Shown: positions 1,384-58,290 of the stretch, in pieces
Position numbering within the stretch: position 1 is the first letter of the stretch
How the letters are laid out: the number at the start of each line of letters is the position of its first letter
From: Halorussus vallis
Lineage (GTDB): Archaea; Halobacteriota; Halobacteria; Halobacteriales; Haladaptataceae
Direction of reading: 5' to 3'
Length of the DNA stretch: 64,000 bases
NCBI RefSeq assembly: GCF_024138165.1
Contig: NZ_CP100000.1
Coordinates: forward strand, 3,286,001-3,350,000
Made by a program: the position numbers and the translations under genes
The notes under the pieces: model-generated
Told to the model about the DNA's origin: nothing
Seen by the model: only the letters and a program-made list of their open reading frames with translations
Databases searched by the model: none

Positions 1384-1503
1384 GAAAGGGGCCGGCCGGT
1401 CGCGTATACTTTAGTCGCCTCTGCAGGCCACTATTCTCGCCGAGCGCCGCAGGCGCGAGGCATGAATATCCTGCAGAGCGACCGCGAGCGGGCGGGGGCT
1501 TTC
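1384..1503 (+). repeat. structured repeat, full copy 2
   Basis: Begins GAAAGGGGCC and ends GGGGGCTTTC. The long arm pairs GTCGCCTCTGCAGG with CCTGCAGAGCGAC, leaving one unpaired C. The apex is GCC-GA-GCGCC-GCA-GGCGC-GA-GGC, flanked by the conserved CTATTC and GAATAT. The outer helix is damaged (GGCCGGTCGCG against CGCGAGCGGGC) and the 5' box is degenerate, so this may be a decaying copy. It lies on the opposite strand to its neighbours, head to head with copy 1. Confidence 0.75.
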
Positions 1504-23173: not shown

Positions 23174-24598
23174 GTGACGAAGCGAACCGAGAGCCGCGTG
23201 GACATGACGACCGGCGCGGTAACGCCGAAACTCGCCAGCCTGGCGTGGCCGCTGGTCGCCGGCAATCTGCTCCAGACGGTCTACAACCTCGCGGACATGT
23301 TCTGGGTGGGTCGAGTCGGCGCGACGGCCGTCGCGGCCGTCTCGCTGATGTTCCCGACCGCGTGGCTGTTCGTCTCCATCGCGATGGGCCTGACCGCGGC
23401 GTCGGTCGCGCTCGTCTCCCAGCACGTCGGCGCGGGCGAGGACCGCGCCGCCGACAACGTGGTCGCCCAGACGACCCTCCTCACTGTCGTCGTGGCGCTC
23501 GCGCTGTCGGCGTTCGGCTACGCCTTCCGGCGACCACTCGTCTCGCTGGTCGGCGCGGAGGGGCAGGTGTACGCCTACGCGCTCCAGTACATCGAAGTGC
23601 TGTTCGTCTCGATTCCGTTCACGTTCCTCTTCTTCGTCTTCCGGGCGGTGTTGCGCGGCGCGGGCGACACGCGGACCGCGATGTGGCTGATGGTGTTCTC
23701 CGCGGGGATGAACGTCGTGCTCGACCCGCTGTTCATCCTCAGCTACGGGCCGTTCCCGGCCTGGGAGGTCCGGGGCGCCGCGGTGGCGACGCTCATCTCG
23801 CGGGTGTTCGCCGCCATCGTCGGCGTGTACATCCTCCTGCGGGGCGACTGGGGCGTGAAACTGTACGTCTCGGACCTGCGGCCCGACTGGCCGGTCTTGA
23901 AGAAACTCGTCGACGTGGGCTACCCCGCGACCATCGACGGTGCGGCCCGGAGCTTCGCGGCGGTCGCCATGGCGGCGCTGGTCGCGCGGTTCGGCCCGAT
24001 TCCGACCGCGGCCTACGGCGTCGGCGTCAGGCTGATGTCCGTCTCCTGGACCGTCTCAGGCGCCGTCGGACAGGCGGCCGCTACGGGCGTCGGCCAGAAC
24101 CTCGGCGCCGACACCCCCGACCGCGCCGCGGAGGTGACCTGGAAGGCCACCGCGGGGACGATGGTGGTCCTGTTCGGGGCGGGCGCGCTCATATTCGCGT
24201 TCCCCGACGAGGCGATTCGACTCTTCGTCGACGACCCCGACGTGGTCGCGGAGGGCGTCGACTTCCTCCAAGTCATCGCGCCGTTCCTTGCCTTCTTCGG
24301 CGGCCTGATGGTGATACAGGGCGGCTTCCGCGGGGCGGGCAACACCCGGGCGGCGATGGCCCTCTCCTTCCTCTCGCGCTGGCTGATGCGGATTCCGGCC
24401 GCGCTCCTGTTCGCCTACGGCTGGACGCTCCCCGTGGGGTCGGTCACCCTCGCCGGACTCGCGTGGGGCGTCGACGGCCTCTGGTGGGCCTGGTCGTTCT
24501 CCGCGTTCGGGTCGTTCCTGCTCGGCGTCGCGTGGTTCAGCCTCGGGCGCTGGCGGGAGGGCGTCGTGGAGAAACAGCGACCCGCGCCTGGCGACTGA
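23174..24598 (+). CDS. MATE family efflux transporter
   Basis: 474 residues from the GTG at 23174 (an ATG at 23204 is possible). Two related halves of six helices each, typical of MATE proteins that export cationic drugs with Na+ or H+. Recognisable: LAWPLVAGNLLQTVYNLADMFWVGR in helix 1, FRAVLRGAGDTRTAM after helix 5, ALVARFGPIPTAAYGVG in the second half and GGFRGAGNTRAAM as the matching second-half motif. The stop is followed 108 nt later by a structured repeat in the same orientation. Confidence 0.93.
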   Translation: MTKRTESRVDMTTGAVTPKLASLAWPLVAGNLLQTVYNLADMFWVGRVGATAVAAVSLMFPTAWLFVSIAMGLTAASVALVSQHVGAGEDRAADNVVAQTTLLTVVVALALSAFGYAFRRPLVSLVGAEGQVYAYALQYIEVLFVSIPFTFLFFVFRAVLRGAGDTRTAMWLMVFSAGMNVVLDPLFILSYGPFPAWEVRGAAVATLISRVFAAIVGVYILLRGDWGVKLYVSDLRPDWPVLKKLVDVGYPATIDGAARSFAAVAMAALVARFGPIPTAAYGVGVRLMSVSWTVSGAVGQAAATGVGQNLGADTPDRAAEVTWKATAGTMVVLFGAGALIFAFPDEAIRLFVDDPDVVAEGVDFLQVIAPFLAFFGGLMVIQGGFRGAGNTRAAMALSFLSRWLMRIPAALLFAYGWTLPVGSVTLAGLAWGVDGLWWAWSFSAFGSFLLGVAWFSLGRWREGVVEKQRPAPGD

Positions 24599-24644
24599 GG
24601 CACGAATTCCCGAAGTTCGAACGCGAGACGGCGGGCCGGTCGTC

Positions 24645-24850
24645 GGCGACGCTCGGTGATTCGGGCCACGGGACGCGCTCGGCGAATCAACCGGCGGGTA
24701 GGACTGAAAGGGGCCGCCCGCTCGCGTTCACGTGGTCGTCTCAGCAACCCCTATTCGGTGAGCGCCGGCAGGCGCGAACCGGATATGTTGCTGAGCGACC
24801 GCGAGCGGGCGGGGGCTTTCGAGGCAGTCAGGGTTGCTATTGTTGCCGCA
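24645..24850 (+). repeat. structured repeat, full copy 4
   Basis: The core is 24706-24820. 5' box GCTCGGCGAATCAACCGG then GACTGAAAGGGGCC; outer helix GCCCGCTCGCG/CGCGAGCGGGC; a very short side loop; long arm GGTCGTCTCAGCAAC paired with GTTGCTGAGCGACC. The apex is CGGT-GA-GCGCC-GGCA-GGCGC-GA-ACCG with conserved CTATTC and GGATAT. The 3' box is GGGGGCTTTCGAGGCAGTC. It lies downstream of the MATE gene and convergent to gatB. The remaining 200 bp to gatB shows nothing recognisable. Confidence 0.9.
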
Positions 24851-25044
24851 GTCACGCCGTACTGATTCTTAGCAGTCATACTTCCTGTCGCACGAACGCT
24901 TAAATCGGAAACCGCGACCAAAACTCGACGTGACCTGAGAACGGCCGCGAGGGAGCCTCGGCGGGAGCGCGGCGCACCCCTCGCGAGTCGGACGCCTACA
25001 ATTCGGAAAAGCGCCGCCTGTTCGCAACGAACGACGAGAGTCGC

Positions 25045-44689: not shown

Positions 44690-44760
44690 ACCAATCAACC
44701 GCCGACGAGAGCTACCCCGGCCAAACCACCGGGGGGCTTTCGAGACATCGTTCATCGCGG
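44690..44760 (+). repeat. structured repeat, degenerate copy 7
   Basis: Retains pieces of the 5' box (CAATCAACCGCCG) and the 3' box (GGGGGGCTTTCGAGACATCG, then GCGGTAACGGTCGTTCC). The centre is reduced to CCCCGG-N8-CCGGGG. The outer and long helices are lost. It starts about 60 nt after the gfcR stop on the same strand, the same position as the intact copies. The rest of the 283-bp gap shows nothing recognisable. Confidence 0.6.
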
Positions 44761-54566: not shown

Positions 54567-54780
54567 GAAAGCCCCCGCTCGCTGGCGGTCGTTCCGCGGG
54601 ATATTCGGCTCGCGGCTTCGCCGCTCGCCGAATAGTGGCCCGTCGGAAGCGACCAAGGGCCTGCGGCCCGCCAGCGAGCGGCCCCTTTCAGTCCCACCCT
54701 TCCGGTTGACCGGCCGAGCACGCTCCGGTGGTTGGTGTCACCGCGCGCGACCGGACCGAAACCGGTCGCGCGCAACTCTC
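54567..54780 (-). repeat. structured repeat, full copy 5 (best-paired copy)
   Basis: The core is 54689 down to 54567; the 5' box extends to about 54750. On minus: GGTGGGACTGAAAGGGG; outer helix CCGCTCGCTGGCGG paired with CCGCCAGCGAGCGG; side hairpin GGGCC-GCA-GGCCC; long arm GGTCGCTTCCGACGGG with CCCGCGGAACGACC; apex ATTCGGC-GA-GCGGC-GAA-GCCGC-GA-GCCGAAT. Each helix differs in sequence from other copies yet pairs. It starts 110 nt after the SDR stop on the same strand. Confidence 0.92.
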
Positions 54781-58029: not shown

Positions 58030-58290
58030 GCTTTCGGGGTTCGAATCGGGACGCGCTCGGAGGGACAACTGCCGGGTGGGACTGAAAGGGGCCGCCCGCT
58101 CGCGGCCGAAGGCCGTGGTCGTCTCAGCGACCCCTATCGGGCGAGCGGCGGAGCCGCGAGGCGTGAATATCCTGCAGAGCGACCGCGAGCGGGCGGGGGC
58201 TTTCGAGACGTTTGTCGCATCGGATACAGTCGTTCACGGCGAGCGGGCGGTGGCTTTCGAGGCGGTCACTGCCTCGGTTGCCGTGGTGCT
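58030..58290 (+). repeat. structured repeat, full copy 6, inside the transporter operon
   Basis: The core is 58084-58204. 5' box GCTCGGAGGGACAACTG then GGTGGGACTGAAAGG; outer helix GCCCGCTCGCG/CGCGAGCGGGC; side hairpin CGGCC-GAA-GGCCG; long arm GGTCGTCTC...GAGCGACC; apex GC-GA-GCGGC-GGA-GCCGC-GA-GGC. The 3' box GAGCGGGCGGTGGCTTTCGA is repeated at about 58241-58270, showing local duplication. It lies between livG and livF in the coding direction. No gene in the 361-bp gap. Confidence 0.9.

Follow-up and report, generated by a model that had tools for sequence, protein, structure and literature searches.

Does a hairpin repeat that in a 64,000-nucleotide stretch of DNA (the window, part of a 5.05 Mb Halorussus genome, G000) repeatedly follows stop codons on the same strand belong to the 3′ untranslated regions of those genes, or was it inserted there? 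The initial annotation had placed five copies 60–110 nt past a stop codon; it considered that this regularity suggested transcription within, or processing from, a 3′ UTR, and that it argued against random insertion. The repeat has the ends ...GGGACTGAAAGGGG and GGGGCTTTCGAG..., and its parts and copies in the window are as follows.

24599..24705, plus strand: 5′ tail of the copy between the MATE gene and gatB, degenerate units of ~26 nt running from the MATE stop codon (24596–24598) to the core, within inserted DNA
24706..24820, plus strand: core of the MATE-gatB copy, a type A hairpin (GAAAG ... CTTTC), fold z = -6.6
24821..24880, plus strand: 3′ flank of the MATE-gatB copy, mostly within the inserted stretch, its right boundary approximate
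58084..58204, plus strand: type A core hairpin, 59 nt past the stop codon of a LivG-like ABC ATPase gene
54567..54689, minus strand: type A core hairpin with compensated stem changes, 109 nt past an SDR stop codon
11266..11448, minus strand: type A core hairpin with an extra nested hairpin in its loop, ~108 nt past a pantoate kinase stop codon
1133..1166, minus strand: minimal core of 34 nt, the loop almost wholly deleted, the nearest same-strand stop codon 912 nt away
1384..1503, plus strand: core with a decayed left end (GGATGAAAGGGG), the upstream gene on the opposite strand
44730..44745, plus strand: right-end remnant only, the former "degenerate copy after gfcR" (gene call from the initial annotation)

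Four of the five gaps between stop codon and GAAAG were recovered to within 1–2 nt and on the same strand, at about 107–109 nt (MATE, pantoate kinase and SDR) and 59 nt (LivG-like). The fifth copy, that after gfcR, is a right-end remnant with no recognisable left end, so that its distance is unmeasurable, and two copies which had not been counted (1133–1166 on the minus strand and 1384–1503 on the plus strand) break the pattern. The copy behind the LivG-like ATPase has an extra right-end unit at 58247–58262.

The exact 14-mer of the left end, ACTGAAAGGGGCCG, occurs 61 times in G000, with 28 hits in forward and 33 in reverse orientation; the reversed 14-mer, used as a control, is absent. All 61 loci were fetched and 59 copies could be scored, using gene calls from our own codon-usage model trained on the fetched loci. 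Distances to same-strand stop codons ranged from 59 to 967 nt with a median of 150. In a null model which gave each copy a random strand and a random position inside the same intergenic gaps (5000 trials, with minimum gaps that we chose), 10.3 copies were expected at 55–115 nt; the 13 observed are no significant excess (P = 0.21). A second Halorussus species (G176, 70 copies fetched) displays a mild excess in this range (18 vs 11.3 expected, P = 0.014). Fixed spacing past stop codons thus fails genome-wide, on both the distance tabulation and the gap randomisation: it is not real.

What near-constancy the window displays, some 60–110 nt, can be put down at least in part to a tandem-repeat tail belonging to the element itself. 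Degenerate units arrayed upstream of the core have a period of 26 nt in G000 and 26–27 nt in G176 (z about 19), and the 26-nt period of the tail at 24599..24705 holds across all copies. Downstream of the core the period is 54–57 nt, and units related to the flank at 24821..24880 recur 3′ of many copies. As read off the sequences, the 26-nt unit contains a self-complementary CACCG-GAAGCGCT-CGGTG which is able to pair. Between the MATE gene and gatB, all five relatives compared lack everything from the stop codon to past the core, the tail included. Since the tail array was inserted with the core, the stop-to-core distance is largely the length of the tail plus a few bases.

Other modules adjoin some cores. 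At six loci of G000 (L004, L010, L017, L021, L028 and L052) a second palindromic unit, TTCTCGTGAGCGGAGCGAACGAGAGCTCGTCGGACC..GGTCCGAC, stands just left of the core, inside the left flank's conserved GGGTGG; as GGTGG is repeated to either side of it, it resembles a nested insertion. At 1330–1352 of the window, and upstream of L003, L035, L155 and L156, there is another shared haloarchaeal module, like GAGTCGGTTGGGGAGGGTGTGG. In some copies it takes the place of the 26-nt tail, and it is predominant in G196, a genome from another family.

The MATE-gatB site is not alone in being empty elsewhere. Another site in Halorussus, L039, lacks the element in all four relatives compared. In the pantoate kinase gap G274 has an element of the same orientation and G172 has almost no gap. 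In Haloarcula we compared one orthologous gap, on the htpX side, across fifteen genomes. It is near-empty in G270, G083 and G055, holds end remnants in G102 and G051, a one-sided copy in G212 and a reduced form in G169, and carries full composites of two divergent hairpins in G115, G154 and G084, those of G084 differing from those of G115 and G154. Empty orthologous sites in close relatives, and a single site with empty, remnant, one-sided and full states, speak against the view that the placement argues against insertion, although the empty sites could partly be due to loss of copies. Intergenic divergence leaves the insert boundaries uncertain by tens of nucleotides, and for this reason no target-site duplication could be fixed.

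Between the MATE-gatB insert and gatB lies a separate stretch (24898–25040, plus strand) which is conserved in six Halorussus genomes. It has a TTTAAAT box followed by CGTGACCTGAGAAC.GCCGCGA...GCGCCGCCTGTTCGC, finds no match in Rfam and is possibly an undescribed small RNA gene.

Altogether the repeat was found in 159 of 292 Halobacteria genomes and 52 of 77 genera. The distribution is patchy: seven congeners hold 0, 6, 26, 42, 54, 63 and 71 copies. The cores occur as singlets in Halorussus, and in the Haloarculaceae (G268; Haloarcula loci L150–L154 and L192–L221) as divergent pairs 41–49 nt apart, the composite having the inverted ends ACAGCCAGAAAGCCCC...GGGGCTTTCTGGCTCTGT. A scan of IMG/VR gave 69 stretches with the 14-mer, many of them probably chance occurrences. 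At least two plasmids of Haloarcula that were typed as MPF_T carriers (pNG500 and CBA1115 unnamed3; L146 and L147, 4001–4122) have a type A core at one and the same place upstream of an SSB-like gene.

Orientation fared better than spacing. Of the 59 G000 copies, 41 have an upstream gene of their own strand and 18 one of the opposite strand; the null model gave 28.6 on the same strand, and 41 was reached in none of the 5000 trials. The corresponding excess in G176 is 40/67 against 28.5 expected (P = 0.0004). By context, 37 of the G000 copies lie between tandem genes (31 co-oriented, 6 opposed), 10 between convergent and 12 between divergent genes; the tandem ratios of 31:6 in G000 and 33:10 in G176 (P = 4e-5 and 6e-4) bear out the claim of non-random orientation for Halorussus. 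The tabulation of both properties across the genome therefore upheld a strand bias in this genus but no fixed spacing. About 30% of the G000 copies have no same-strand gene upstream, and in G176 27 of 68 copies have an opposite-strand gene upstream, 17 copies lying between divergent genes. In G196, which belongs to another genus as well, 12 of 30 copies lie between convergent genes, and those in tandem contexts show no bias (6:8). Co-orientation is real in Halorussus, yet not a property of the repeat family. A dependence on replichore was rejected, runs of strand along the contig C1 being not below chance (26 vs 29.7, P = 0.20). Because orientation in Halorussus is non-random, many copies there probably sit on read-through transcripts.

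The core forms a hairpin whose stems are hypervariable yet keep Watson-Crick pairing. It ranges in length from 20 to 263 nt and has the ends GAAAG... and ...CTTTC. Most single copies fold far better than shuffled sequences, with z-scores of -6.6, -5.7 and -3.6, and one copy is at -1.6. Among 18 copies from G268 standard pairs make up 96.4% of the paired cells (76.9% when shuffled), there are 102 double-change cells (30 shuffled), and covariation stands at 0.50 against 0.15 for shuffled and 0.04–0.08 for slid versions; as the tested structure was itself derived from this alignment, it has an advantage over the slid ones. No two of 25 cores in that genome share a left arm, while one stem position is almost always T-A. 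A GGG/GGG loop is found in every core, but since cores were chosen by those letters its invariance is not independent evidence; likewise the conservation of the ends is partly ascertainment, exact ends having been the criterion for picking copies. Letters deeper in the internal loop played no part in this choice and are conserved in type B cores. Minimal cores, GAAAGGGGCCGGGGGCTTTC, are present in G000, G176 and G268.

Whether such pairing is kept at the level of RNA was approached through G-U pairs: on the sense strand, selection for RNA should leave more of them than of A-C. With pairs taken from folding either strand, the cores gave a G-U:A-C ratio of 39:24 (P = 0.08), G-U making up 1.1% of cells; SRP RNA from 19 haloarchaeal genomes, treated alike, gave 44:12 and 3.3%. 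This weak test leans toward a constraint on DNA. A structured RNA of 3′ UTRs (a processed sRNA, a protector of mRNA 3′ ends or an RNase target), kept for its RNA fold, would fit the strong covariation, the conserved internal-loop letters of type B cores and the tendency of copies in two Halorussus genomes to run the same way as tandem genes. We nevertheless regard it as unlikely in view of the copies between divergent genes (12 in G000, 17 in G176), the absence of tandem bias in G196, the weak sense-strand signature relative to SRP RNA and the insertion polymorphism at orthologous sites. A conserved 3′-UTR RNA would always follow a same-strand gene; the repeat has an opposite-strand gene upstream in 18/59 (G000) and 27/68 (G176) copies. 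Rfam yielded no match at gathering thresholds and a lone chance-level one (E = 0.66), which disposes of a known RNA family, and a literature search by sequence returned nothing relevant. The observation from which we started is thus partly confirmed and its interpretation partly supported: the reading as 3′ UTR is not needed, and the element is not native 3′ UTR.

Recruitment as a transcription terminator or insulator would agree with the intergenic position of the hairpins and with their frequent occurrence between convergent genes in G196 (12/30). It is nonetheless improbable: there is no T-run 3′ of the core, G000 copies lie mostly in tandem-gene gaps (37/59) and only 10/59 at convergent ends, and the patchy distribution extends from 0 to 71 copies among congeners.

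The element is probably a mobile palindromic repeat without a transposase, comparable to small mobile repeats or to REP/BIME elements. The 5′ tail of ~26-nt units, the hairpin core of 90–120 nt and a short 3′ flank would insert as one block into intergenic DNA, and selection would presumably remove copies that fall in promoters or genes. The smallest gaps to a stop codon in G000 are 59 nt on the upstream and 52 nt on the downstream side, those to a start codon 120 and 103 nt, respectively; the minimum gaps to start codons, greater by ~50 nt than those to stop codons, are as expected if promoter-damaging insertions are lost. In G176 a few copies are closer to genes than these minima. An enzyme acting in trans probably recognises the constant ends together with the fold (GAAAG/CTTTC, GGG facing GGG and the fixed T-A stem pair), on single-stranded or cruciform DNA; recognition of shape would explain why stem letters are free to vary as long as they pair. 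The co-orientation in Halorussus may reflect selection against one orientation on transcripts or an orientation bias in insertion itself.

Recent transposition alone should have left near-identical copies, but the stems differ widely and are compensated, as if a constraint acted in situ. A further reading is that of a class-wide folded family whose stems compensate at each resident locus while the internal-loop letters (GGG/GGG, tandem GA) stay fixed. In such a family a mobile ssDNA or RNA structure would be recognised by a non-Y1 archaeal enzyme or a host protein, and each site might serve the host in some way; we consider this alternative rather unlikely.

As to the enzyme that would move our mobile repeat, REP elements are moved by RAYTs and PATEs by IS605 transposases. 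An IS200/IS605-type Y1 (HUH) enzyme would agree with the hairpin ends, with the lack of an obvious target duplication and with the BIME-like composite inverted pairs, 41–49 nt apart, of G268. It is, however, very improbable as the mobilising enzyme. Five genomes with 26–69 copies each (G147, G162, G026, G199 and G232) have no match to PF01797, and the only full-length Y1 gene of G000 sits in an IS605-type element with unrelated ends; Y1/IS605 mobilisation is thereby weakened. No autonomous parent or enzyme was found, a parent with matching ends having been sought among the Y1-type elements of G000.

REP, BIME and REPIN sequences of bacteria are imperfect intergenic palindromes with conserved mismatches, a GTAG/CGTC tag and RAYT enzymes. 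Our repeat shares with them the form of short, imperfect intergenic palindromes and the conserved mismatches, as singlets in Halorussus and inverted pairs in Haloarculaceae; it differs in its longer core, in that no GTAG/CGTC tag was seen and in the lack of a Y1/RAYT gene in several high-copy genomes. The ERIC repeats of enterobacteria are palindromes of ~127 bp which lie in transcribed intergenic gaps and harbour nested insertions, and are alike in these respects; no sequence relation is known, and neither the 26-nt tail nor the GGG/GGG loop is known from them. Integron attC sites are hairpins kept in shape rather than sequence, with an unpaired central spacer, placed 3′ of genes in the same orientation. 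The present hairpins resemble them in all of this, but it is a resemblance only: the element inserts alone, forms no array and has other end motifs. Gene cassettes of the attC type were rejected, as the elements insert without genes and the flanking genes are in place in relatives.

Among haloarchaeal elements, PATEs and MITEs are likewise non-coding with palindromic or inverted-repeat ends (PMC3119063). Our repeat lacks near-terminal palindromes around an IS605-type core, and no parent transposon sharing its ends was seen when the Y1-type elements in G000 were compared. The small mobile repeats (SMRs) of Haloquadratum walsbyi are ~110 bp long with inverted-repeat ends and no transposase, number tens of copies per genome, are mobilised in an unexplained manner, insert mainly into other mobile elements and are near-identical within a type (PMC3119063). 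Going by these descriptions, ours agrees in being haloarchaeal, of similar length and copy number, too short for a transposase, bounded by inverted ends and polymorphic in insertion, and is set apart by its targeting of ordinary intergenic gaps and its hypervariable stems. SMRs are the best described analogues, and the repeat is best filed, by analogy, as an element working like a small mobile repeat or a BIME.

Repeats of this kind can mimic conserved 3′ UTRs if a single window is read. They are abundant non-coding elements, present in more than half of the 292 sampled Halobacteria genomes without an Rfam family or a sequence match in the searchable literature. That the stems pair strictly although their letters are free points to shape as the thing recognised, and in this way the search for the enzyme becomes a well-defined one.
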